DNA of 64,000 nucleotides from Aliikangiella sp. G2MR2-5 (lineage in GTDB: Bacteria > Pseudomonadota > Gammaproteobacteria > Enterobacterales > Kangiellaceae), in assembly GCF_015687155.1 (NCBI RefSeq), contig NZ_JADPQF010000005.1:1-64000 (forward strand), written 5' to 3'. The translations under genes and the position numbers were made by a program. The notes under the pieces were generated by a model. It had not been told where the DNA came from and did not search any database. It saw nothing but the letters and a program-made list of their open reading frames with translations. This document shows, one piece after another, positions 8,024 to 32,201 of the stretch. Within the stretch, counting starts at the first letter, position 1. Each line of letters starts with the position of its first letter.

Positions 8024-9211
8024 ATGAAAACCTGGTTTAAGCTAGGAGTCTCTCTGTTTCTCTATCTACTTTTAGGTTTCGAAGTTTCCGCGTGCGTAAC
8101 GGGACGAAGTACGGGGGATATGGGAATTATTATCGAAAGAGCCTCGGGGAGTCTTTTGGTGGTTGAGCATAGCCACAATAAAATATTGTGCCGTGTCGAA
8201 GGATTAGGCGACTTGTCGCATGCTTCCGCGGTTTACTCCAGAGATCAGGCTTTCGCCTACATTTTTGCGCGCGATGGCGGTTTAAGCAAAGTTGATCTTC
8301 GCGAAGGAAAAGTCGTTAAGAGAATTATTCAGGGTGGTAACTCCATCGGCGGCGCTATTTCCCAAAGCGGCAAATATATTGCTGTGTCAAACTATGAGCC
8401 TGGCGGTGTAAAGATCTTTAATAGCGATGATTTAACTTTGGTTGCCGATATTCCTGCTCCTATCGAGGGAAGCGACAAGCGTTCAAAAACTGTGGGGCTG
8501 GTTGATATTCCTGGAGAACAATTTGTTTATAGTTCGTTTGAAGGCAACGATATTTTCAAAGTCGATTTGACATCACCTGAAAAACCGCAGGTCACAAGAA
8601 TTCAAAACGTCGGCCGTCAACCTTATGACGCACTGGTTTCTGATGATGGCCGCTTTTATATTGCCGGACTGTTTGGCGAAGACGGACTGGCTCTCGTCGA
8701 TCTATGGGAAAAAGAGCTAAAAGCCAAAAGAATATTGAATCATTACGGTAAAGGTGAGAAAAAATTTCCGGTTTACAAAATGCCGCACCTGGAAGGATGG
8801 GCGATGAATCGAGACAATGCCTTCTTGCCGGCAATAGGTCAAAGACAGTTGCTGGTTCTAGACTTGCAAAACTGGAAAGAAGAAACAAGAATCGATGTTA
8901 AAGCGAACCCAGTATTTGCGATGGCTCAACCGGATGGTAGACAAATATGGGTGAACTTTGCTTTTCCGGATAATCAATGGCTTCAGGTGATCGATGCCGT
9001 ATCTAAGAAAGTGGTCAAAACAATAGAAGCTGGAAAAGGTGTGCTTCATATGGAGTTTACACCTCGAGGGGAGAGAGTCTGGGTATCTGTAAGAAATAAA
9101 AACGAAGTTCAAATTTACGATACCCGAACCTTGGAAAAAGTTTCGACTTTACCTGCTCAAAGTCCTAGTGGGATTTTCTTTACTAATCGTGCTCATAAAA
9201 TAGGTTTATAG
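8024..9211 (+). CDS. nirF: Heme d1 biosynthesis lipoprotein NirF
   Basis: NirF is a periplasmic eight-bladed beta-propeller, homologous to the d1 domain of nitrite reductase, that acts late in heme d1 synthesis. The 395 residues form one propeller without a heme c motif, which separates it from NirN and NirS. The N-terminus is a lipoprotein signal with lipobox VSAC and lipidated Cys24, as known for NirF. Repeated propeller motifs of the WVSVRNKNEVQIYDTRTLE kind are visible near the C-terminus. It lies between nirC and the nirDLGH group in an operon transcribed rightwards. Confidence 0.88.
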   Translation: MKTWFKLGVSLFLYLLLGFEVSACVTGRSTGDMGIIIERASGSLLVVEHSHNKILCRVEGLGDLSHASAVYSRDQAFAYIFARDGGLSKVDLREGKVVKRIIQGGNSIGGAISQSGKYIAVSNYEPGGVKIFNSDDLTLVADIPAPIEGSDKRSKTVGLVDIPGEQFVYSSFEGNDIFKVDLTSPEKPQVTRIQNVGRQPYDALVSDDGRFYIAGLFGEDGLALVDLWEKELKAKRILNHYGKGEKKFPVYKMPHLEGWAMNRDNAFLPAIGQRQLLVLDLQNWKEETRIDVKANPVFAMAQPDGRQIWVNFAFPDNQWLQVIDAVSKKVVKTIEAGKGVLHMEFTPRGERVWVSVRNKNEVQIYDTRTLEKVSTLPAQSPSGIFFTNRAHKIGL

Positions 9212-9238
9212 AGAGCGTAATATAGCGGGGACTATAGA

Positions 9239-9685
9239 GTGGATATTTCAGCGCAAGATATTGAGCTTCTCAACCGGGTACAAAAGAACTTTCCGATTGT
9301 TAGTGACCCATTTGCTGAAATCGCCAGTGAATTAGGTCGTGATAAAAGCGAAATGATTAATCGGCTTGCGCTGTTAGAGCAGGCTGGCTTTATTGCCCGT
9401 TTTGGAGGTGTCAATAACCATAAAAAAATGGGCGCTAGTACCTTGGCTGCGCTCAATGTGCCGACGGAAAAAATCGATGAGATTTCTACCCTGGTAAATT
9501 CATTTCGGGAAGTTAACCACAATTATTTGAGAGAAAATGCATTTAATTTGTGGTTTGTAGTAACGGCCGCGACTGAAGGTAAATTGCAAGAGATCTTGTC
9601 CGAAATTCAGCGCCGAAGCGAGTGCGAGTTATTAGACTTGCCAATGGTAAAAAGCTATCACATTGATCTGGCTTTCCAAATATGA
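9239..9685 (+). CDS. nirD: Siroheme decarboxylase subunit NirD
   Basis: One of four consecutive AsnC/Lrp-like proteins that together decarboxylate siroheme to didecarboxysiroheme, the first dedicated step toward heme d1. The 148 residues contain an N-terminal winged-helix-like part (1-60) and a C-terminal ligand-binding fold with the NirD-like segments GASTLAALNVP and NHNYLRENAFNLWFV. The start is GTG, preceded by GCGGGG. The stop overlaps the next start by 4 bases (ATGA), so translation is probably coupled. In this family the AsnC fold is enzymatic rather than regulatory. Confidence 0.85.
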   Translation: MDISAQDIELLNRVQKNFPIVSDPFAEIASELGRDKSEMINRLALLEQAGFIARFGGVNNHKKMGASTLAALNVPTEKIDEISTLVNSFREVNHNYLRENAFNLWFVVTAATEGKLQEILSEIQRRSECELLDLPMVKSYHIDLAFQI

Positions 9686-10161
9686 TCCCGGCCGAAAAAC
9701 AACAGCTACTGCTTGATAAACTTTCTTCGGGACTTCCGATTTGTGAATTTCCGTTTAGACGGATTGCGGAAGAATTGAGCCTGGATGAGCAGGATGTACT
9801 TGAATTTTATCGAACTTCTTTAGCAAACGGAACAACCAAAAGAGTTGGCATGGTATTAAACCATCAGCGTCTTGGTTACCGCTCTAACGCGATGGTGGTT
9901 TGGAACGTTCCAGGTGAACTGGTCGATCATGTTGGCGAACTCCTGGGACGCGAAGACAAGGTTACATTGTGCTATCAACGACCACGCAGAGCGCCGCATT
10001 GGCCCTATAATTTATTTGCCATGATTCATGGCAAATGTCGGCAGGCCGTTCTAGCGGAGATAGCGCGTATTCGTAAAGAAAACGGACTGGAAAATATCGA
10101 GCATGATGTGCTTTTTAGTACGCGCAAGTTTAAGCAAACAGGGGCAAGATATGCATCCTGA
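9682..10161 (+). CDS. nirL: Siroheme decarboxylase subunit NirL
   Basis: The second AsnC/Lrp-like subunit, 159 residues, overlapping nirD by 4 bases and nirG by 11. It has the segment KRVGMVLNHQRLGY and the CYQRPRRAPHWPYNLFAMIHG block (about residues 105-126) that marks the NirL/NirH branch. NirD-type and NirL-type chains pair to form the siroheme decarboxylase. The tight overlaps suggest the subunits are made in fixed proportion. Naming within the four-gene set follows the usual nirD-L-G-H order. Confidence 0.83.
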   Translation: MIPAEKQQLLLDKLSSGLPICEFPFRRIAEELSLDEQDVLEFYRTSLANGTTKRVGMVLNHQRLGYRSNAMVVWNVPGELVDHVGELLGREDKVTLCYQRPRRAPHWPYNLFAMIHGKCRQAVLAEIARIRKENGLENIEHDVLFSTRKFKQTGARYAS

Positions 10162-10669
10162 CTCAGTTGAAAAAAAAATATCGAAACAAAAGTCGCGTTC
10201 ACACTTGTTACAAGAGCCGGTAAATCTTAACGAGCTGGAAAAGCAGTTGATCAATAGGCTCCAGGGTGATCTGCCGTTAACCGAAAGACCTTTTTTGCAA
10301 ATTGCCGATGAATTAGGGACAACCGAATCAGAGGTTATTCTGGTATTGAACCGACTGCTGGAAGAAGGCGTCATTACCCGCTTTGGACCTCTATTTGATA
10401 TTAGCAAAGGAAGCGGTTGTTTCTCTCTGTGCGCGCTTAAAGTTCCGCAAACAGATATTGATAGAATTGCATCGATAGTCAATGAATTTCCGCAAGTCGC
10501 GCATAACTATTTACGAGACAATGAGTGGAATATGTGGTTTGTTCTTGCCGCAAAATGTCAGGATGAGTTAACCGCTATTTTCGAACAGATAGTTGAACTG
10601 ACAGGTTGCCCGGGAATTAACTGTCCCAAAGAAAAAGAGTTTTTTGTCGGTCTTAATCTGCCTGTTTAA
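10151..10669 (+). CDS. nirG: Siroheme decarboxylase subunit NirG
   Basis: The third AsnC/Lrp-like subunit. It has the NirD/NirG-type features: a GSGCFSLCALKVP segment, AHNYLRDNEWNMWFVLAA, and a C-terminal FFVGLNLPV. The ATG at 10151 is chosen because it overlaps nirL by only 11 bases; an in-frame start at 10103 would overlap far more and adds no conserved sequence. From this start the protein is 172 residues and carries a 30-residue charged extension before the AsnC fold. It would pair with NirH in the same way as NirD pairs with NirL. Confidence 0.82.
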   Translation: MHPDSVEKKISKQKSRSHLLQEPVNLNELEKQLINRLQGDLPLTERPFLQIADELGTTESEVILVLNRLLEEGVITRFGPLFDISKGSGCFSLCALKVPQTDIDRIASIVNEFPQVAHNYLRDNEWNMWFVLAAKCQDELTAIFEQIVELTGCPGINCPKEKEFFVGLNLPV

Positions 10670-10674
10670 TAAGA

Positions 10675-11157
10675 GTGACTGATTCTGCTATGAATACAAT
10701 AGAAAAAAAGATAATAGAAAAGATGCAGGCCGGCATGCCTATTAGCGAAAAGCCCTATGAAGAAATCGCTGAAGCATTAAATATTAGTCAGACGCAACTG
10801 CTTCGAACTCTTGACGGCATGAAAAAAAGTGGTCTGATTCGAAGGATAGGTTTGGTTCCCAATCATTATGCAATCGGTTACACCGTAAATTTAATGACGG
10901 TTTGGGATATCAAGGATAGTGATATTGATCAGGTTGGAGTATCTGTTGGTGCGTTAGACTTTGTTAGTCATTGCTATCAGCGGCCAAGACACTTACCAGA
11001 TTGGCCATATAACTTTTTTGCCATGGTGCACGGGAAAAGTGAAGCGGAAGCCAATGATAAAATGCAGCAGATAAATCTGCTGATTAAAGACAGCTGTCGC
11101 CAGTTTACATCTTTAAAGAGTACCAAAATTTTGAAGAAAACAGGGCTTAGAATTTAA
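10675..11157 (+). CDS. nirH: Siroheme decarboxylase subunit NirH
   Basis: The fourth AsnC/Lrp-like subunit, up to 160 residues from the GTG at 10675. An ATG five codons later (10690) is an alternative start. It carries RRIGLVPNHYAIGY and the CYQRPRHLPDWPYNFFAMVHG block also seen in NirL, so the NirD-L-G-H quartet is complete. The gene follows nirG after 5 bases and precedes nirJ by 87 bases. The role is siroheme decarboxylation in heme d1 synthesis. Confidence 0.82.
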   Translation: MTDSAMNTIEKKIIEKMQAGMPISEKPYEEIAEALNISQTQLLRTLDGMKKSGLIRRIGLVPNHYAIGYTVNLMTVWDIKDSDIDQVGVSVGALDFVSHCYQRPRHLPDWPYNFFAMVHGKSEAEANDKMQQINLLIKDSCRQFTSLKSTKILKKTGLRI

Positions 11158-11244
11158 CCTGTAAGACTGAGCCTCGCAGGGTTGGCGACAAATACTTAAG
11201 CGACAAAGAGAATAGTGCCCAGGCCAGCACAAAAGAGGTAGAAA

Positions 11245-12489
11245 ATGTTTAGAGTAACTCAATTTATGCAGGCGGTTGCCGACCCTGAAGCAACCCGTCC
11301 TTTAAGACAGCCTCCGGGTCCGGTTGTTATCTGGAATCTAATTCGTCGATGTAATCTTTGCTGTAAACATTGCTACTCGATTAGCGCCGATACTGATTTT
11401 CCGGGAGAACTTTCTACCGAGCAGGTTTTTGACACTTTAGACGATCTAAAACAGTTTCGTGTACCCGCTCTCATTCTTTCAGGAGGCGAGCCGCTACTAC
11501 GTCCCGATATTTACGATATTTCAAAACGTGCAAAAGACCTGGGTTTTTATATCGGACTCTCAACCAATGGTACCCTTATTGATGAAAATAATATTGAGCG
11601 ACTAGCCGAAACTGGCTTTGATTATCTGGGAATCAGTATCGACGGTATCGGTAAAACCCATGATGAATTTCGCCAGATGGAAGGGGCGTTTGATAAGTCG
11701 ATGCATGCAATAAAACTTTGTCAGGAACGAGGGATTAAAGTCGGTCTTAGATTTACCTTGACTCAGGATAATGAGAAAGAACTGCCGAGAATTCTTGAAC
11801 TCGTCGATAAACACAATATCGATAAGTTTTACCTTTCTCACTTGAACTATGCAGGACGAGGTAACAAGAATCGAGGCGACGATGTTGTCCACCAAATGAC
11901 CAGGCGCGCAATGGATTTTATTTTCAACGAAGCCTGGAGTCGACTGGGTACCGAAAGAGAAATAGAGTTTGTAACAGGCAATAACGATGCTGACGGTGTT
12001 TATTTCTTGCAGTGGGTTGAAAAAAACAAACCGGAGCTTAAAGATTTTATTCACGAACGTCTTACCCAATGGGGTGGCAATTCAACCGGTAAGAATGTTG
12101 CTAACATTGACAACCTTGGTGAAGTTCATCCGGATACTTTCTGGTGGAACTATAAACTCGGTAATGTCAAAGACAGGAAGTTCTCAGAGATATGGTCTGA
12201 CTTAAGCGATCCTTTAATGGCCGGGCTAAAACTGGGTGAAAGACCGTTAAAAGGTCGTTGTGGCTTGTGTCCGTTCAAAAATGTTTGCGGCGGTAATACT
12301 CGAGTCCGCGCTTATCAATTAACCGGAGACCCCTGGCAAGAAGATCCTGCTTGTTATTTAACTGATGAAGACCTGGGTATTAACAATGCCGCTGAACGAA
12401 TTCAGGTTGTCCCTTACGCCAAAGGGAAAGGAAGTAAACAGGCCAATCAGAAAATTCAGGAAGAAAATCGGTCAAGTCTCGAAGTTTAA
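11245..12489 (+). CDS. nirJ: Heme d1 biosynthesis radical SAM protein NirJ
   Basis: NirJ removes the two propionate chains of didecarboxysiroheme in heme d1 synthesis, using radical S-adenosylmethionine chemistry in the cytoplasm. The 414 residues include the cluster-binding CxxxCxxC at Cys36/Cys40/Cys43 and a C-terminal SPASM-like cysteine group (CGLCPFKNVCGG) for a second iron-sulfur cluster. GGEP and other radical SAM barrel motifs are present. An AGAGGTAG-like ribosome site precedes the ATG. It sits between nirH and nirN, as in other heme d1 operons. Confidence 0.93.
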   Translation: MFRVTQFMQAVADPEATRPLRQPPGPVVIWNLIRRCNLCCKHCYSISADTDFPGELSTEQVFDTLDDLKQFRVPALILSGGEPLLRPDIYDISKRAKDLGFYIGLSTNGTLIDENNIERLAETGFDYLGISIDGIGKTHDEFRQMEGAFDKSMHAIKLCQERGIKVGLRFTLTQDNEKELPRILELVDKHNIDKFYLSHLNYAGRGNKNRGDDVVHQMTRRAMDFIFNEAWSRLGTEREIEFVTGNNDADGVYFLQWVEKNKPELKDFIHERLTQWGGNSTGKNVANIDNLGEVHPDTFWWNYKLGNVKDRKFSEIWSDLSDPLMAGLKLGERPLKGRCGLCPFKNVCGGNTRVRAYQLTGDPWQEDPACYLTDEDLGINNAAERIQVVPYAKGKGSKQANQKIQEENRSSLEV

Positions 12490-12586
12490 CAGGCATCTGT
12501 GAATGAACTTAACCAGCACTTGAGGCAGTGGAAATTTTAGAACGAAACATTGAATCGAGCATAAACAAATTGAGAAGAGTAGGGCT

Positions 12587-14128
12587 ATGAATTTAAAGCA
12601 AGTTCTTTGGGGAATTAGTGGCTTATTAGCGTTTGCTGGCGGAAGCATTGCTTTGGCTGCAACTGTAGATTCGGATTCCGATAGTAGCGCGAAAAAAGAC
12701 TATCTGCAGCACTGTGCCAGTTGTCATGGCGAAGCTCGTCTTGGCGGAATTGGACCCGCTTTGCTTCCGGATAATTTGAGTCGAACTCGAAAGAAAGCGG
12801 CGATTGATGTTATTAGTAACGGGCGTGCGCTAACACAGATGCCCGGGTTTGGGGCGCTGTTATCTGAAAAGCAAATCAAGGCGGTTGCAGATTATGTTTA
12901 TCAGCCGCCAAAGTTACTACCTAAGTGGGAAGCCAAAGAAATAGGCGCCAGCAGAGTCGAGCACTTTGATCAGGATAAACTAGGCAATAAGCCCGTTTTT
13001 AAAGCAGACCTGCAAAATCTTTTTATTGTGGTCGAAACCGGTGATCATCACGCGACTTTACTTAACGGTGATACTTTCGAACCGATACATCGTTTTAAAA
13101 CGCGGTTTGCGGTTCATGGTGGTCCCAAGTATTCTCCCGATGGTCGCTATGTCTATTTTGCCAGTCGTGACGGATGGATTTCCAAATTTGATATATACAA
13201 TTTAAAAACCGTCGCTGAAGTAAGAGCCGGGATTAATACTCGAAATGCGGCTATGTCTTTCGATGGAAAAACAATCGCTGTCGGTAACTACCTGCCGAAT
13301 AATATGGTTTTGCTCGACGCTCGAGATTTATCTCTGATAAAAATTATCGATGCAAAAAATGATGAGGGAAAAAGTTCCAGAGTGAGTGCTGTTTATACCG
13401 CGCCTACTCGAGGCAGTTTTGTCGCAGCGATGAAAGATTTTACTGAGATTTGGGAGATCCCTTATAGCGGAGAAAATAAATTTAAGGCTCGACGAGTTGT
13501 GCTGGAAGATTATCTCGATGACTTTTTCTTTAATCAGGACTACTCGCTGGTGATAGGTGCATCTCGACCTGCCAATAGTAAAGGGCATCAGAAAAATTTA
13601 ACTGGTAAGGTAATCAATCTGGACACAGGTAAACTGGTATCCAATATCGATATTAAAGGAATGCCTCATTTAGGTTCAGGAATCACCTGGGACTATCAGG
13701 GAACGGAAGTTCTGGCATCTCCAAATTTGAGCAAAGGCGAAGTCAGTGTTATCGATATGAAAAGCTGGAAGACAGTTAAAACCTTAAAAACTGAAGGTCC
13801 CGGATTTTTTATGCGTAGTCATGAAGGAAGTAAATATGCCTGGGCGGATGTTTTCTTCGGACCGAACAAAGACAAGATCCATGTAATAGACAAGTCGACT
13901 TTGGAAATAGTAAAAACCCTGCAGCCGGAGCCGGGAAAGACTGCAGCACACATTGAATATACCAAAGACGGAAAGTATGCACTCTTGTCTATCTGGGATA
14001 TGGATGGGGCGGTAATTGTTTATGATGCCGAAACCCTGAAAGAGGTAAAGCGGCTACCTATGAAAAAACCATCCGGCAAATACAATGTTTACAACAAAAC
14101 TCACTATGAAAGAGGAACCAGTCACTAA
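12587..14128 (+). CDS. nirN: NirN, cytochrome c/d1-type dihydro-heme d1 dehydrogenase
   Basis: A 513-residue periplasmic protein with a signal peptide (about residues 1-25), a cytochrome c domain with heme motif CASCH at 43-47, and a C-terminal d1-type beta-propeller. NirN oxidises dihydro-heme d1 in the last step and hands heme d1 to NirS. Domain order is the same as in NirS, but this protein lies with the maturation genes and is clearly divergent from the NirS at 25.3 kb, which supports NirN. It follows nirJ by 97 bases, with a GAAGAGTAGGG stretch before the ATG. Confidence 0.85.
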   Translation: MNLKQVLWGISGLLAFAGGSIALAATVDSDSDSSAKKDYLQHCASCHGEARLGGIGPALLPDNLSRTRKKAAIDVISNGRALTQMPGFGALLSEKQIKAVADYVYQPPKLLPKWEAKEIGASRVEHFDQDKLGNKPVFKADLQNLFIVVETGDHHATLLNGDTFEPIHRFKTRFAVHGGPKYSPDGRYVYFASRDGWISKFDIYNLKTVAEVRAGINTRNAAMSFDGKTIAVGNYLPNNMVLLDARDLSLIKIIDAKNDEGKSSRVSAVYTAPTRGSFVAAMKDFTEIWEIPYSGENKFKARRVVLEDYLDDFFFNQDYSLVIGASRPANSKGHQKNLTGKVINLDTGKLVSNIDIKGMPHLGSGITWDYQGTEVLASPNLSKGEVSVIDMKSWKTVKTLKTEGPGFFMRSHEGSKYAWADVFFGPNKDKIHVIDKSTLEIVKTLQPEPGKTAAHIEYTKDGKYALLSIWDMDGAVIVYDAETLKEVKRLPMKKPSGKYNVYNKTHYERGTSH

Positions 14129-25078: not shown

Positions 25079-25092
25079 TTGATTTGAGTCAA
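25079..25092 (-). promoter_or_regulatory. FNR/Dnr-type box upstream of cysG
   Basis: TTGAT-TTGA-GTCAA matches the FNR/Dnr consensus at 9 of 10 positions. Reading toward cysG, a TAGTAA -10-like hexamer (complement of 25055-25060) places the start about 38 bases from the box centre, close to class II geometry. The box is 64 bases before the cysG ATG. Confidence 0.55.
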
Positions 25093-25195
25093 CAGATAGG
25101 GGGCAACAGGTGTTTTTGCTATACAGAAAATAATTTGCTTGTGAGTTTGATTATAAATCCCCTAAAAAAATTGTGGAAAATCAGCGGTGTATATA

Positions 25196-25236
25196 TTGAT
25201 TTTGATCAAAGTGATGGTAAGTGGCAGGCGTATGAT
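25196..25236 (+). promoter_or_regulatory. Perfect FNR/Dnr box and promoter of nirS
   Basis: TTGAT-TTTG-ATCAA at 25196-25209 is a perfect 10 of 10 match to the FNR/ANR/Dnr consensus. TATGAT at 25231-25236 is a good -10, giving a start about 40 bases from the box centre, as in class II activation. It lies 100 bases before the nirS ATG and inside the longer upstream reading frame, which supports the internal start. Confidence 0.8.
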
Positions 25237-25308
25237 GAGTCTCGAGTTAATCAAATTAATTTGTTGAACCACTCAATTTTATATTCCAAACAAACGAGGG
25301 GATTAGTC

Positions 25309-26937
25309 ATGAAAAAGACAAAGGTAGGTCTCTCTGCACTGGGGATGGCTGCCGGGCTGTTTGCATCAGGTATTAGTATGAATGCATTTGCAGCAGCGCC
25401 AACTTTATCTGAGGCAGAATTTGAAAAGGCAAAAACGCTTTATTTCCAGCGCTGTGCTGGTTGTCATGGTGTTTTGCGTAAAGGTGCTACAGGTAAAAAT
25501 CTTGAACCAAAATCTACACTGAAACTTGGCCAGAAACGCTTAGAAAAAATTATTGCCTACGGCACAGAAGGCGGCATGAACAACTTTGATGACATTTTTA
25601 CCAAAGATGAAATCAAACTTGTTTCGACTTATATCCAGATGGAACCTCCAGTGCCACCAGAAATGTCTTTAGATATGATGAAAAAGCGCACTAAACAATT
25701 TGTTGCTTTGAAGGACTATCCCACAAAGCCATTACACACTCGTAATTGGCAAAATTTCTTCGTTGTTATCGAACGAGATGCGGGTAAAGCTGCGATCATT
25801 GATGGTGATACGAAAGAAGTAGTCGCTCATCTTGATACAGGTTATGCGGTCCATGTTATTAAAGGAACAGAGCATCATAAAACTCAGCACGCAAAAGATG
25901 TTGGTCGTTTCTGGTATACCATTGGTCGTGATGGACGAGTAAATAAAATAGACCTTTGGCAAACGCCAGACAAAATGTTAGTTGCTGAAACTCAAATGGC
26001 ATATGATGCACGAGATATTGCGGTATCAGGAGACGGTAAATATGTTATCGCGGGTGGTTACTGGCCTGCGCATTTTGTCATTATGGATGCGGATACGTTA
26101 GAGCCTCTTAAAGTTGTTTCAACTCGTGGTTATAACACTAAAGGTGAGTTTATTAACGAAGCGCGTGTTGCAGCAATCTACACAACGCCTAATGAACCAA
26201 CGTTCCTTGTTGCGGTTAAAGAACTAGGACAAATGTGGCAAGTTGATTATCGTGATTTAGATAATCTGCGTATCGAACAAATTAACTCAGCTGAGTTCTT
26301 GCACGATGGGTTCTTCGATCCGACTGGTCGTTATTTCCAAATTGCGGCTAATGCTTCCAATAAAATGGTGATTGTTGATACCAAGGATCGCAAGCTCGAG
26401 AAAATGATCGATGTTGACAAGCTTCCACATCCAGGTCCTGGCGCTAACTGGGTTGATGACAAATGCGGTCCTGTTGGTGGTACTACTCACCTGGGCGTAG
26501 GTCTGGTTTCTGTTTGGGGCAATGATCCAATGAACCATCCTGACCAAGCTTGGAAACTTTGTTATGAAGTCGAAACTGACGGCGCAGGCGTATTCATCCG
26601 CACTCATGAAAATTCTCAATACGTATGGGCTGATCAGTTGAAACATCCTGAGCCTGAAGTTCAACAGTCTGTACAAGTTTTCGATAAGAAAACTCGTAAA
26701 ATTGTTAAAACCATCCGTGTGACTGAAGAGAAAGGTAAAGCGGCACTTCACATTGAATTCAATAAAGGTGGTAGTGAGGTTTGGGTATCAGTCTGGAACA
26801 GAAGTGACAACAAGAATCCAACCGGTGAAATCGTAGTCTACGATTCTAAAACTCTTAAAGAGAAGCATCGTATTAAAGGCTTAACGACTCCAACAGGTAA
26901 GTTCAACGTGTTCAATCGCTCTAACCATAAAACTTAA
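25309..26937 (+). CDS. nirS: Cytochrome cd1 nitrite reductase NirS
   Basis: NirS reduces nitrite to nitric oxide in the periplasm, the defining step of denitrification. From the ATG at 25309 (after ACGAGGGG) the protein is 542 residues: a signal peptide (about 1-28, ending NAFA-A), a cytochrome c domain with heme motif CAGCH at 49-53, and the d1-heme eight-bladed propeller (about 130-540). The open frame extends up to 25084, but that stretch contains the FNR box and has no signal-peptide character, so the shorter start is preferred. It is divergent from cysG, followed by a strong terminator, then by a NirT-like cytochrome gene. It depends on the heme d1 operon at 7.5-14.1 kb. Confidence 0.93.
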   Translation: MKKTKVGLSALGMAAGLFASGISMNAFAAAPTLSEAEFEKAKTLYFQRCAGCHGVLRKGATGKNLEPKSTLKLGQKRLEKIIAYGTEGGMNNFDDIFTKDEIKLVSTYIQMEPPVPPEMSLDMMKKRTKQFVALKDYPTKPLHTRNWQNFFVVIERDAGKAAIIDGDTKEVVAHLDTGYAVHVIKGTEHHKTQHAKDVGRFWYTIGRDGRVNKIDLWQTPDKMLVAETQMAYDARDIAVSGDGKYVIAGGYWPAHFVIMDADTLEPLKVVSTRGYNTKGEFINEARVAAIYTTPNEPTFLVAVKELGQMWQVDYRDLDNLRIEQINSAEFLHDGFFDPTGRYFQIAANASNKMVIVDTKDRKLEKMIDVDKLPHPGPGANWVDDKCGPVGGTTHLGVGLVSVWGNDPMNHPDQAWKLCYEVETDGAGVFIRTHENSQYVWADQLKHPEPEVQQSVQVFDKKTRKIVKTIRVTEEKGKAALHIEFNKGGSEVWVSVWNRSDNKNPTGEIVVYDSKTLKEKHRIKGLTTPTGKFNVFNRSNHKT

Positions 26938-27080: not shown

Positions 27081-28874
27081 ATGTCACAAAAAGAATCCAA
27101 ACTGAAAAAATTAATGAGAAAGAAAATTTTGATGGGAGCTACGGTCGCTGCCGGATTGGTTTTCTTTGTCGGTGGTATCATCTTTTGGGGTGGTTTCAAC
27201 ACCGCAATGGAAGCAACCAATACACTAGAGTTTTGTATCAGTTGCCACGAAATGGAAAACAATGTCTATCAGGAATATAAGCCGACGATTCATTATTCAA
27301 ATCGTACCGGAGTTAGAGCGGGTTGCCCCGATTGTCACGTTCCGGACCCATGGGTTCACAAAGTTGTTCGAAAAATACAGGCTTCGAATGAACTCTATCA
27401 TAAAATGGTTGGAACCGTTGATACGCCAGAAAAGTTTGAAGAACATCGACTAACTATGGCAAAACGAGTATGGAAAACAATGAAGGAGACTGACTCAAGA
27501 GAGTGTCGTAACTGCCATAATTTTGAGTCTATGGCTCCTCAGTTTCAAAAACCAAGAGCCCGCAAGCAACACCTTAATGCTTTTGAAAATGGGCAAACCT
27601 GTATTGATTGCCATAAAGGAATCGCACATAACAATGTTCGACACATGTTGTCTGACGAGGAGCTAGAAGAACTCGAAGCGCCAAATCCTGAATTTGTTCG
27701 TGAAGTTCCTCAGATGTATCTGGATGGACTTGAATTGGTCGCCAAACAGGAAGCGGAAGAAAAGGAAAAGGCTGCCGCTGAGAAAGATGCTGCTGAAGCG
27801 GCAGAAAAAGCCAGAATCGAAGCTGCAGTCAAAGAGGCTTTGGCGCAATATCAAGGTGATGGAGGAGCTGCCAAGCCCGTGGCGGAACAAGCTACTTCTA
27901 ACGAAGCTTCCAGTAGTATTGATGTGGACTGGTCAAAGGCTGCAAGTAGAGACATTACGATTTTCTACCCTGGACAGGCTTCTATTGAGTGGGTACTTAA
28001 TGGTCGAGATCATGGCGGTGCAAGACCCTTCGAGAAAGGTGGCGATCGGTGTGTTACCTGTCATGACAATGAGACCGCTGATATGGGAGTTAAGATTGTT
28101 ACCGGAGAAAAAGCTGAAGATACGCCTATTTCTGGTAAGCGAGGCAGCATTCCAGTGAAAGTAGAGTCAACTCATGATGGCGAGTACCTGTATTTGAAAT
28201 TTAGTTGGGAAGATACTGAGCATGTGCCAGTACCGTTTGTTGATGGTGGCAAAATGGACCCTGAAAACAAAGTCAAACTGGCAATTATGCTGGCTACTGA
28301 CGAGGTTGAGTTTGCTGATAGAGCAGGTTGCTGGGGCACCTGTCACCACGATGCGCGTAACATGCCTCATGCTCCGGATCAGGCAACTCTTGAAGGTAGC
28401 GAGTTTAAGGAGCGTATCGATCTTGAGTCCGGTGTTACCAAGTATCTAAAGGAAAGTCGTAGCAATATCGAAGTGAAAGGTCGAAGAGGAAAAATGCGCG
28501 GTGGCTGGGATAAACTTGTGGACCAGGCGGCAATAGATGAAGCCAACAGTGCCAACCAATATATGGACCTTATTCGCTATCAAGCCGGAACCAATGTTGT
28601 TGAAGATGGCCACATATTGGAACAACGCGTGATGAGCGGTGGAACAGGTGCAGAATTTGTTGCACAACTAAAAGGCGGCAAGTGGGTTGTAGAAATGAAA
28701 CGAAAGCTGACTGCGAATAAGTCGGGAGACGTCAATATTGAATCGGGTCAACTTTATAACTTTGGATTTGCTATTCATGATGATTACAGCAGTTCTCGTT
28801 TCCATCATGTTTCTCTGGGCTATAAATTGGGACTGGACAACGCTGAAGCCGAAGTAAATGTAAAGAAGCAGTAA
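27081..28874 (+). CDS. NapC/NirT-type tetraheme cytochrome fused to an ethylbenzene-dehydrogenase-like heme domain
   Basis: A 597-residue membrane-anchored cytochrome. Residues 1-16 are basic, followed by one membrane helix (about 17-38). The NapC/NirT domain has four CxxCH hemes at Cys52, 82, 142 and 174. An Ala/Glu/Lys-rich helical linker (about 222-275) leads to a C-terminal domain resembling the heme-binding subunit of ethylbenzene/DMSO dehydrogenases. That domain carries a fifth CxxCH at 324-328 and a CxxxCH at 417-422. NirT proteins pass electrons from membrane quinol to periplasmic reductases, so this is a likely donor to NirS. Plain NirT is about 200 residues; the extra domain is unusual. 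AAGGAG precedes the ATG. Confidence 0.88.
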   Translation: MSQKESKLKKLMRKKILMGATVAAGLVFFVGGIIFWGGFNTAMEATNTLEFCISCHEMENNVYQEYKPTIHYSNRTGVRAGCPDCHVPDPWVHKVVRKIQASNELYHKMVGTVDTPEKFEEHRLTMAKRVWKTMKETDSRECRNCHNFESMAPQFQKPRARKQHLNAFENGQTCIDCHKGIAHNNVRHMLSDEELEELEAPNPEFVREVPQMYLDGLELVAKQEAEEKEKAAAEKDAAEAAEKARIEAAVKEALAQYQGDGGAAKPVAEQATSNEASSSIDVDWSKAASRDITIFYPGQASIEWVLNGRDHGGARPFEKGGDRCVTCHDNETADMGVKIVTGEKAEDTPISGKRGSIPVKVESTHDGEYLYLKFSWEDTEHVPVPFVDGGKMDPENKVKLAIMLATDEVEFADRAGCWGTCHHDARNMPHAPDQATLEGSEFKERIDLESGVTKYLKESRSNIEVKGRRGKMRGGWDKLVDQAAIDEANSANQYMDLIRYQAGTNVVEDGHILEQRVMSGGTGAEFVAQLKGGKWVVEMKRKLTANKSGDVNIESGQLYNFGFAIHDDYSSSRFHHVSLGYKLGLDNAEAEVNVKKQ

Positions 28875-28988: not shown

Positions 28989-29015
28989 AACTAAGTCGTA
29001 AGGCTTAGTTTTTTT
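28989..29015 (+). terminator. First of two tandem terminators
   Basis: AACTAAG-TCGTAAGG-CTTAGTT followed by a run of T. A third stem, GGGCCC ... GGGCCC (28960-28980), lies just before it. Confidence 0.6.
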
Positions 29016-29017
29016 GA

Positions 29018-29045
29018 GGGAAGTCGTCTTGACTTCCCTTTTTTT
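29018..29045 (+). terminator. Second tandem terminator
   Basis: GGGAAGTC-GTCTT-GACTTCCC followed by seven T residues; a strong intrinsic terminator closing the nirS/cytochrome region before the cupredoxin gene. Confidence 0.8.
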
Positions 29046-29082: not shown

Positions 29083-29448
29083 ATGAAGTTTACGACTTTA
29101 TTAATCATTTTAGGGACTTTTTTCTTGGCAAGCTGTATCCAGGCCTATGAGAGTGAGTCTCCCAGCACACAGCAAATTACCACTGTGAATGATGTCGTTG
29201 AAGTGTCAATTCTAAAATATCAATTTATTCCGCAAGTCATCGTTATCAAGCCGGGACAGACTGTTCGCTGGACAAATCAGGAAAAGCGACAATACCATAG
29301 CGTCTGGTTTGAAAAGTCTGGCGAGCCTGAACCAGACTATTTCTTTCCTGATGAGACCTATGAAAAGGTTTTTAAAGAATCTGGAGAGTTTGACTATCGT
29401 TGTGGACCGCATCCGGAAATGATCGGCAAAGTGATAGTCAAACAATAG
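29083..29448 (+). CDS. Plastocyanin-like cupredoxin lipoprotein
   Basis: A 121-residue type 1 copper protein. The lipoprotein signal has lipobox LASC with Cys18 as the lipidated residue, so it is probably tethered to a membrane facing the periplasm. The copper ligands are readable as His72 (QYHSVWF), Cys107, His110 and Met113 (CGPHPEM), in plastocyanin/azurin order. Such proteins carry single electrons. Its place directly after nirS and the multiheme cytochrome makes it a candidate electron carrier for nitrite reduction, which is inference. The gene has its own AGGAGA ribosome site. Confidence 0.85.
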   Translation: MKFTTLLIILGTFFLASCIQAYESESPSTQQITTVNDVVEVSILKYQFIPQVIVIKPGQTVRWTNQEKRQYHSVWFEKSGEPEPDYFFPDETYEKVFKESGEFDYRCGPHPEMIGKVIVKQ

Positions 29449-29511: not shown

Positions 29512-30006
29512 ATGAATAGTACGGAACCTGAAAAAGAGTCGAGTCCTTATGCTTCCCCACAATCTATTGAGCACGATTATATTAATGATGTTGCGGAAAT
29601 CGTCCCCGCCGGTAAATGGCTAAGACTCGCAAACTTCATACTGGACTATTTTGGTTTTTTTCTACTAGCCGTTGTTATCGGTATTCTAGCTGGTCTTTTG
29701 GGGGGGGATGAGTTGCTAAGTAAAATAGATCAGATGGGACCACTTGAAGAACGATTTTTCGGGTTAGCTTTAATGTTGATCTATTATCTGTTCTTTGAAG
29801 GTTTTTTTGGATTCACTCCGGGAAAGTTAGTGACAGGTACCAGAGTCGTCGATCTAAATGGAAGGAAACCGAAAGTTGCTACAATTTTGGGGAGGACATT
29901 ATGTCGATTTATTCCTTTCGAACCCCTTTCGTTTTTTGGGAGTACCAGACGAGGGTGGCATGATTCTATTTCCAATACTTATGTAATCAAAGTTCACCGC
30001 AAGTAA
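29512..30006 (+). CDS. RDD-family membrane protein
   Basis: A 164-residue protein with an acidic N-terminal tail (1-30) and three hydrophobic segments (about 40-62, 82-102 and a weaker one near 105-125). The segment WLRLANFILDYFGFF resembles the RDD family signature, and FFEGFFGFTPGKLVTGTRVVD is the typical second RDD block. RDD proteins are of largely unknown function; some have been linked to ion transport. It follows the cupredoxin by 63 bases and may be co-transcribed. Nothing connects it to nitrite metabolism beyond position. Confidence 0.8.
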   Translation: MNSTEPEKESSPYASPQSIEHDYINDVAEIVPAGKWLRLANFILDYFGFFLLAVVIGILAGLLGGDELLSKIDQMGPLEERFFGLALMLIYYLFFEGFFGFTPGKLVTGTRVVDLNGRKPKVATILGRTLCRFIPFEPLSFFGSTRRGWHDSISNTYVIKVHRK

Positions 30007-30115: not shown

Positions 30116-31048
30116 ATGACGAAAAGCGTTTATAGTTTTGCCTATGGTTCCAACATGTCACCCAAACGACTAAGCGCGAGGGTGACAGTTATTGAATCCT
30201 TAGGAGTTTATCATCTATCGGGTTATCAGCTGAGGTTTCACAAAGCGGGAGACGATGGTTCAGCCAAGTGTGATGCTTACTATACCGGAGACACGCAGGA
30301 CGTTATCTGGGGAAGTCTGTATAAACTCAGTGCTGACGATAAAGCAACTCTGGATAAAATCGAAGGTGTCGGTAACGGATACGAGGAAAAATTGGTTGAG
30401 GTTAGCAATTCTGCAGGAGAAACGGTTAATGCCTGTATTTATGTCGCGACCAGAATCGATGAGAATATGGTTCCTTATGACTGGTATAAGACCCATGTTG
30501 TGAGCGGTGCTGAGCACTTTCAGTTGCCCAGGCACTATATTGAAACTATTCACGCGATAGAAGCTCAACCAGACCCTCACAGAGGACGTTATTTACAGGA
30601 AACAGCAATCTATTCCAGACATCCTGTTTTGCCACAAGAAGATGACAACTATGGGACTTTGGACGCTTCTTTTAAAGCGGCTGGCGGAGAAGAGGGGGTA
30701 AAAAAACTGGTCAATGATTTTTACGACAATATGGAAGCGCTAGCAGAGGCTCGTAATATTTTGAACATGCACCCGAAGGATTTGTCTGCATCAAGAGACA
30801 AGCTATTTCGCTTTCTCTGTGGCTGGCTTGGAGGCCCTAGACTATACAGGGAAAAATACGGTCCTATCAGCATTCCAATGGCACATAAACAGTTTAAAGT
30901 TACCGAGTCTGATCGAGATGCCTGGATGCTGTGTATGGAGAAGGCTATTGCCGACCAGCCCTATACGCCGAAATTCAAGCGCTATCTTTACGAGCAATTG
31001 ATGGTTCCGGCTAATCGTGTGCATCAGGTTAATGTGGCGGCTAAATAG
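30116..31048 (+). CDS. Gamma-glutamylcyclotransferase fused to a group II truncated hemoglobin
   Basis: A 310-residue two-domain protein with no signal peptide. Residues 1-160 are a gamma-glutamylcyclotransferase-like fold with the YGSNM substrate loop (10-14) and likely catalytic Glu83 in DKIEGVGNGYE; such enzymes release 5-oxoproline from gamma-glutamyl peptides. Residues about 180-290 are a group II (TrHbO-type) globin: FYDNM with Tyr204, MHPKDLSASRDKLF, FLCGWLGGP, proximal His258 in PMAHKQF and Trp270. Both sets of key residues look intact. I do not recall this fusion as characterised. The position after nirS suggests handling of NO or O2 linked to glutathione turnover, as inference. Confidence 0.85.
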   Translation: MTKSVYSFAYGSNMSPKRLSARVTVIESLGVYHLSGYQLRFHKAGDDGSAKCDAYYTGDTQDVIWGSLYKLSADDKATLDKIEGVGNGYEEKLVEVSNSAGETVNACIYVATRIDENMVPYDWYKTHVVSGAEHFQLPRHYIETIHAIEAQPDPHRGRYLQETAIYSRHPVLPQEDDNYGTLDASFKAAGGEEGVKKLVNDFYDNMEALAEARNILNMHPKDLSASRDKLFRFLCGWLGGPRLYREKYGPISIPMAHKQFKVTESDRDAWMLCMEKAIADQPYTPKFKRYLYEQLMVPANRVHQVNVAAK

Positions 31049-31187
31049 GTAGCTAGTTAGTTAGCCGATTTAAGACAAGCTTGTTTAATTCGTTACTTTC
31101 ACGCTAGGATTGCCTACCAGATGTCTTAATCCGTTAGAAAAGTCTCCTTTTGTCGTGGCTTTTCGAAACCAGAATAAAAATTTAACA

Positions 31188-32201
31188 ATGATACCTTCAC
31201 ACAGCGAATCGAATAATCGATATCATGCTCGAATTAATCGAGTCGTCGATTATATAAAAAATAATATTGAACATGAGCTTTCTCTCGACACTCTGGCGGA
31301 AGTCAGCCAGTTTTCCAAATTTTATTTTCACCGTATATTTAAGTCGATTATCGGCGAAAATCTGAATGGATTCATTAACCGAAGCAGAGTTGAAAAAGCG
31401 GCTTTTAAACTTTTGAATTCGCCGCAAGAGCCGGTGAGTAATATCGCTTATGACGTTGGCTTTTCAAGTCCTTCGACTTTTTCCCGGGCATTTAAGTCTC
31501 ACTTTACACTCTCACCGAGTGAATGGCGTGAGAAAAACTTTCAAAATAGCAAGATTTGCAAAGTGCATAGCAATCATGGTCAAACGGTTTGCAAATCCGG
31601 ACAACTGAGTTGCTCTATTGAGTTGTATATTGATTCTCGCAACAACAAACCAATATGGAGAATCAATATGAAAAAAAATTTGCAACACGACGCTGAAAAA
31701 AATTTGTCATTTGAAGTGAAAGTAGAACCCATAGAAGACATTTCGATCGCCTACATTCGGCATCAAGGCGCATATAAGGCCAACGATAAAGTACTGTTTC
31801 AACAACTTTTTGGGCGATTAATGAGCTGGGCCATACCGCGAAACCTGTTCGAGCCGCCTAAGAGCAGAGCTTTTACTGTTTATTCCAGCGGCCATCCAGA
31901 TATTACCGAGCCCGATAAACTTACTGTCGACGTTTGCATTAGTGTTGATCCGGCGACCAAGGTCAGTGGCGAAGTCGGGATGCGAAATCTTCCGGGGGGT
32001 AACTATGCCGTGGTTGAACTTGATGAGGCTACGCAGGAAGAATGTGCTCAAGCTTGGGATAGTGTTTTCAACCACTGGTTACCCGAAAGTGGGTATCAGC
32101 CTGGAGAAGGGGCCTATTTTTGTGAGCACTTAAACAACCCTGAGCAGCACCCTGAAGGGTTATATAAAGTTGCCATGTATTTGCCGGTCAAGCCTTTATA
32201 A
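31188..32201 (+). CDS. AraC-family regulator with GyrI-like effector domain
   Basis: A transcription factor of 337 residues from the ATG at 31188. The N-terminal part (about 15-115) has the two AraC helix-turn-helix motifs (LDTLAEVSQFSKFYFHRIFKSI and SNIAYDVGFSSPSTFSRAFKSHF). The C-terminal part (about 180-335) is a GyrI-like small-molecule-binding domain (EVKVEPIEDISIAYIRHQGAY ... GGNYAVVELD). This arrangement is shared with the Rob/SoxS-type multidrug sensors. The frame is open back to a TTG at 31110, but that part lacks conserved sequence. The ligand and targets are unknown. Confidence 0.88.
   Translation: MIPSHSESNNRYHARINRVVDYIKNNIEHELSLDTLAEVSQFSKFYFHRIFKSIIGENLNGFINRSRVEKAAFKLLNSPQEPVSNIAYDVGFSSPSTFSRAFKSHFTLSPSEWREKNFQNSKICKVHSNHGQTVCKSGQLSCSIELYIDSRNNKPIWRINMKKNLQHDAEKNLSFEVKVEPIEDISIAYIRHQGAYKANDKVLFQQLFGRLMSWAIPRNLFEPPKSRAFTVYSSGHPDITEPDKLTVDVCISVDPATKVSGEVGMRNLPGGNYAVVELDEATQEECAQAWDSVFNHWLPESGYQPGEGAYFCEHLNNPEQHPEGLYKVAMYLPVKPL

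Follow-up and report, generated by a model that had tools for sequence, protein, structure and literature searches.

The stretch of DNA analysed here (the window) comprises the 64,000 nucleotides at the start of contig NZ_JADPQF010000005.1 of Aliikangiella sp. G2MR2-5, and contains a gene in which an enzyme of the gamma-glutamylcyclotransferase (GGCT) family and a group II truncated haemoglobin (trHb) are encoded in one chain (Table 1). The gene is a single uninterrupted frame of 310 codons from ATG to TAG, with no internal stop; the ATG at 30116 is preceded by no clear Shine-Dalgarno sequence. Three Pfam families match the protein above their curated cut-offs, namely Bac_globin (PF01152, residues 186-283, E = 6.9e-24), AIG2_2 (PF13772, residues 64-144, E = 2.8e-15) and GGACT (PF06094, residues 8-113, E = 5.9e-10). 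No other Pfam domain, and hence no FAD/NAD-binding reductase or electron-transfer domain of the flavohaemoglobin kind, was found on the chain, and no NCBIfam family was matched at an E-value of 0.001. Because one frame holds two domain matches of such strength, chance is not an issue, and the fusion of a cyclotransferase to a globin proposed by the first-pass annotation is real, with both halves apparently intact. A search of the organism's own genome with the full protein gave one match spanning residues 1-310. No signal peptide was recognized by eye, and the protein is presumably cytoplasmic.

Table 1. Features of the fusion gene and its surroundings (positions in the window).
Feature	Position	Strand	Evidence
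NirS, cytochrome cd1 nitrite reductase (context)	25084..26937	+	464 bits to nitrite reductase chain 1bl9; PF02239
NapC/NirT cytochrome joined to ethylbenzene-dehydrogenase-type domain (context)	27081..28874	+	Pfam, NCBIfam, relatives
Adjacent pair of terminator-like hairpins with T runs, following cytochrome gene	28989..29040	+	2 found against 1.9 in shuffles
Cupredoxin (plastocyanin/amicyanin-like), last gene of block common to three relatives	29083..29448	+	Pfam, NCBIfam, synteny
RDD-family membrane protein, ending 109 bases before fusion	29512..30006	+	Pfam
Fusion gene, GGCT-family enzyme and group II truncated haemoglobin, 310 aa	30116..31048	+	Frame, Pfam, full-length own-genome match
GGCT/AIG2_2 half, residues 1-167	30116..30616	+	Pfam, alignment to human GGCT, stand-alone columns
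Junction, residues 168-177	30617..30646	+	Ends and starts of stand-alone GGCTs and trHbs
Group II trHb half, residues 172-310, with Y203, H219, H257 and W270	30629..31045	+	Pfam, alignments
AraC-type regulator with GyrI-like domain, downstream of fusion	31110..32201	+	Pfam

Residues 1-167 constitute a whole GGCT-family protein, and the scores (40.2 bits against a cut-off of 22.8 for PF06094, and 57 bits against 27 for PF13772) place it within the superfamily. Each half was compared with stand-alone proteins encoded at loci of related genomes, 16 GGCTs and 35 trHbs in all; the window itself (L091) and matches covering less than 80% of a half were left out of these counts. The YGSN loop (residues 10-13) and Glu83, given earlier as signs of an active enzyme, are as described: both are kept in all 16 stand-alone GGCTs, and E83 lies in the column (counted by hand) of E98 of human GGCT, which we take to be the catalytic glutamate. 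Human GGCT (PDB 2pn7, 2rbh and 3cry) is the nearest solved chain by sequence and the best fold match, and has in common with the fusion the YGSN loop and an LDxxEGV motif with the Glu98 column; it has no globin, however, is only 22-23% identical in the fold alignment, and its aligned sequence lacks two motifs of the bacterial subfamily that are conserved in the fusion, FHKxxxDGSxKC (residues 41-52) and WYxxHVxxGA (residues 123-132). Because of these additional motifs, the reaction and substrate of the bacterial half are not certain, and the subfamily possibly acts on a substrate different from that of the human enzyme. Glutathione is nevertheless a plausible substrate, as the first enzyme of its synthesis, glutamate-cysteine ligase, is encoded in the genome. 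The cysteine of FHKxxxDGSxKC is present in the fusion and in 15 of the 16 stand-alone GGCTs, and is absent from the aligned human protein. The stand-alone GGCTs have 42 columns with an identity of 90% or more, of which the fused half keeps 41, and stand-alone GGCTs left out in turn keep a median of 98% (lowest 91%). Its branch length equals the median (1.56 changes per column) and is flagged among the long branches of the tree.

Residues from about 172 to 306 form a complete group II trHb (PF01152, 84.8 bits against a cut-off of 21). The residues earlier numbered Tyr204 and His258 are in fact Y203 and H257, each being off by one, and Trp270 was numbered correctly. These three align with the equivalent residues of the group II chain of B. 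anthracis (5v3t), and the Y203 column is Ala in 5v3v, the Tyr26Ala mutant of that chain; we take Y203, W270 and H257 to be Tyr B10, Trp G8 and the proximal His F8, respectively, the residues of a group II trHb. All three are present in each of the 35 stand-alone trHbs, and E83, Y203, H219, H257 and W270 are invariant across the stand-alone sets. By sequence, the nearest solved chains are the truncated haemoglobins 4uur (P. haloplanktis) and 2xyk (A. tumefaciens), which, together with B. subtilis YjbI (1ux8), share Tyr B10, Trp G8 and the proximal His with the fusion; the His in MHP/IHP is also as in 4uur and 2xyk. Of these proteins, the fusion alone carries an enzyme at the N-terminus of the globin. 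Preceding the proximal His, the fusion has a loop with the sequence YGPISIPMAH, compared with HGHPMLRARH in the aligned Bacillus-type chains. Loops of the (Y/F)GxIxIP kind before the heme histidine are a feature of a subclade comprising the fused trHb, L027, L028 and L030-L032, and in L033-L035 the loop is YGHPRLRARH. In the stand-alone trHbs, 35 columns have an identity of 90% or more, and the fused trHb retains 34 of them (median 97%, lowest 79%, when these are left out in turn), with a branch length of 0.40 compared with a median of 0.38. As the conserved columns are kept and the branch lengths are near the median, no decay is seen in either half. Both trees are poorly resolved (1 of 14 inner branches well supported for GGCT and 10 of 33 for trHb), and they gave no answer as to the origin of the halves.

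The genome has three matches to PF01152. The two outside the fusion, on contigs C35 (123 aa) and C34 (122 aa), are most similar to cyanoglobin-, HbN- and other group I-type chains, not to group II. The AIG2_2 profile, the one cyclotransferase profile used on the genome, matched it only once, in the fusion. Thus, the fusion holds the sole copy found in this genome of both the GGCT (AIG2_2) type and the group II trHb type. The idea that both other globins lack the group II tryptophan proved wrong; the C34 globin lacks it, but the C35 globin (L057 1489-1860, minus strand), a group I-type trHb by its best matches, has a Trp in the group II G8 column.

The join between the halves is end to end. All 16 stand-alone GGCTs have their C-terminus no more than four residues away from column 166-167. 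Of the 35 stand-alone trHbs, 29 begin within columns 167-179, and the remaining six begin further upstream, which may reflect mechanical choice of the start codon; the linker is therefore of about 10 residues or fewer. One stand-alone GGCT ends in ...GIYSP where the fusion reads ...AIYSRHP. Within residues 150-189, the only in-frame starts are TTG 172 and TTG 182, and since neither has an evident ribosome site, one product is expected. These starts also bear on a sequencing or assembly error joining two overlapping genes, which we think highly improbable: the fusion is known from a single genome, and an insertion or deletion within codons 167-172 could have brought two frames together, but a separate trHb in this frame would have just those TTG starts, the fusion frame has no stop at the junction, and the genome is 100% complete with 0.95% contamination, figures that are by themselves no measure of base accuracy. 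A structure was predicted with AlphaFold2 from four sequences (alignment A2; alignment A1, with the GGCT row L029 misplaced, was left out). The model has a mean pLDDT of 70 and a pTM of 0.45; the top Foldseek match was human GGCT (E = 7e-9), and the other half was matched by group II trHbs (4uur, TM-score by target 0.79). The pLDDT is below 50 at residues 252-256, adjoining the heme histidine, and at residues 134-176, which include the junction, and for the latter reason the arrangement of the domains and their interface cannot be read from the model.

The fusion was recognized only in its own genome. The full protein gave some match in 20 of the 40 genomes sampled from the family, 99 of 394 from the order, 125 of 369 from the class and 136 of 398 from the phylum; these four samples overlap and together comprise about 1,090 distinct genomes. 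No match outside the own genome covered both halves among the matches listed; for class and phylum these were the strongest, and a fused relative is not expected among the weak ones. None of six other members of the genus has the fusion, and a scan of genome contigs gave nine loci, each matching just one half. A mobile origin was not indicated either: no plasmid DNA matched, and none of the 59 plasmid records and one phage record with a protein match covers 80% of the fusion. Further fusions were sought in 14 loci hand-picked for long open frames, 10 of which were scanned with Pfam. One of these (L107) has another domain family, and the other nine have GGCT only or globin only; most of the nine have a Met shortly before the domain, so that they are probably open upstream frames, most of these loci being G+C-rich. 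In the samples covered here, the fusion is thus private to one genome.

Nor did the separate genes show a link in the relatives sampled. Of the 39 other family genomes, 13 have a trHb, 10 have a GGCT and four have both, compared with 3.3 expected. Among the matches listed from the four samples, no conserved GGCT-trHb operon or adjacent pair was found, and the nearest pairs on one contig are separated by about 14 kb in G692 and 16 kb in G002. In the relatives looked at, the trHb gene lies by CN-hydrolase and ThrE genes or is clustered with a GMC oxidoreductase gene, and no neighbor common to several genera was seen in the stretches fetched around GGCT loci. Because the sampled relatives show no such link, the argument from gene fusion to functional association rests on one case.

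The first-pass annotation placed the fusion about 1 kb after the cytochrome region of NirS, an NO-generating enzyme. The nirS gene is genuine, but its frame ends at 26937, 3.2 kb upstream of the fusion; the gene that stops 1.24 kb before the fusion (at 28874) is a different one, encoding a NapC/NirT cytochrome joined to an ethylbenzene-dehydrogenase-type domain. Three family genomes with a close NirS (94, 87 and 84% identity) keep the order nirS, NapC/NirT cytochrome, cupredoxin. In the stretches fetched from these three relatives, neither the RDD gene nor the fusion follows the cupredoxin gene, and no AraC gene is directly next to the block, a distant AraC homologue (28% identity over 109 residues) being found about 11 kb further in L101. 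Synteny therefore stops at the cupredoxin gene, upstream of the fusion, which is not a member of the conserved nir block. The terminator-like hairpins between the cytochrome gene and the fusion are weak evidence, as their number is at the level of shuffled sequences. The window lacks an NO reductase, as had been stated, in that none of the four COX1-family matches of the genome lies in it; however, a NorB of 784 aa with a NorB cytochrome-c-like domain (L066 1318-3672, minus strand) is present on contig C35, and from its length it is presumably of the quinol type. Since the shared block stops before the fusion and the genome has its own NorB elsewhere, the NO source beside the fusion is most likely a coincidence of place, and a functional tie of the fusion to NirS was rejected as unsupported, with none of the three relatives carrying the fusion at the nir block.

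Three further features of the nir genes and NorB were noted. The NapC/NirT cytochrome directly after nirS is kept in the three relatives at 70-79% identity, and could be an electron donor of NirS in this lineage. At 8024-14128 the window has a heme d1 cluster containing a NirJ above the equivalog cut-off, four ORFs related to one another (9239-11157) and two d1-type propellers; these two propeller proteins are taken as NirF and NirN from their sizes and the cytochrome c domain of the second, and the four ORFs could be NirDLGH. On C35, a hemerythrin-domain protein (L066 3697-4239, minus strand) adjoins NorB, an arrangement resembling a Ric/YtfE pair.

With moderate confidence, we interpret the gene as a lineage-restricted, in-frame fusion of two complete and formerly separate genes, giving a tethered bifunctional redox-stress protein. 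The product would be a single cytoplasmic polypeptide whose two active sites work independently. Its N-terminal half would most likely cyclise a gamma-glutamyl group and release 5-oxoproline, from glutathione or another gamma-glutamyl compound, and its C-terminal half would most likely bind heme and carry out O2, NO or peroxide chemistry as other group II truncated haemoglobins do. The short junction would tether the two activities, both serving in the handling of redox or nitrosative stress, and tight coupling between the halves is presumably absent. For group II and related globins such tasks have been discussed: passages of PMC3820574 treat truncated haemoglobins, including mycobacterial GlbO, as NO-metabolising or protective, and in PMC9536834 the group II protein YjbI of B. 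subtilis is discussed as removing protein hydroperoxides.

Three other explanations have to be weighed against this tethered bifunctional protein. The first, a chance fusion of neighboring genes in which one half or none is in use and which has no biological meaning, is unlikely but deserves serious consideration: the fusion is a singleton among the sampled genomes, and the stand-alone relatives of its halves lie in different neighborhoods in the family genomes looked at. However, a product out of use sits poorly with the lack of decay (all but one of the conserved columns kept in each half, and branches near the median) and with the fusion being the only copy of each type found in the genome. 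The second, put forward in the first-pass annotation, is a heme-gated enzyme, whose cyclotransferase rate would depend on O2 or NO at the heme or on its redox state, so that glutathione turnover would follow. To our knowledge, direct control of gamma-glutamyl turnover by a gas is without an earlier case. Both active sites look intact, the short linker means that the domains must lie close together, and other globins are coupled to output domains (PMC1457004 and PMC7082302, in part). Against this, no fused homologue was found among the matches listed from the sampled genomes, the two genes show no co-occurrence signal in the family, and the poorly predicted stretch at residues 134-176 leaves no readable interface. 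We therefore regard heme gating as doubtful, and a shade more doubtful still is its boldest form, in which the breakdown of a gamma-glutamyl compound (glutathione or S-nitrosoglutathione) would be paced by the globin through its ligand or redox state. The third is a putative processing of S-nitrosothiols, in which the GGCT half would remove the gamma-glutamyl group of S-nitrosoglutathione and the tethered globin would take up NO released by the less stable product. The genome has both the NO-forming NirS and glutathione synthesis, but the gene shows no link to the nir block and the bacterial GGCT subfamily may act on a different substrate, and we give this explanation little credence.

Multidomain truncated haemoglobins are already known; the new feature is the cyclotransferase as a partner. 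In the parts of PMC3820574 and PMC7082302 consulted, the fusions in print are a raphidophyte nitrate reductase-trHb, a trHb-antibiotic monooxygenase and a kinase-linked 2/2Hb, which likewise join a trHb to an enzyme but differ in the partner, the trHb here being C-terminal to a cyclotransferase. No paper on a pairing of GGCT or cyclotransferase with a globin was found in the open-access literature with a few term variants (a subscription review on multidomain trHbs may list it), in agreement with the earlier remark that the fusion is not characterized. Because the task of many group II trHbs is unclear, their fusion to a simply assayed enzyme provides a test of their role. If the halves communicate, gamma-glutamyl turnover could be read against O2, NO or the redox state of the heme in one pure protein; if they do not, the gene is a clean example of a new domain pairing arising in a single lineage. 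A GGCT of the same subfamily (44% identity) also forms part of a larger frame in genome G989, where a 707-aa protein (L107 1867-3990, minus strand) has an HEPN/RES N-terminal domain, a RES domain and a GGCT-family domain in a row, with the GGCT at the C-terminus and HEPN/RES, instead of a globin, as its partner.
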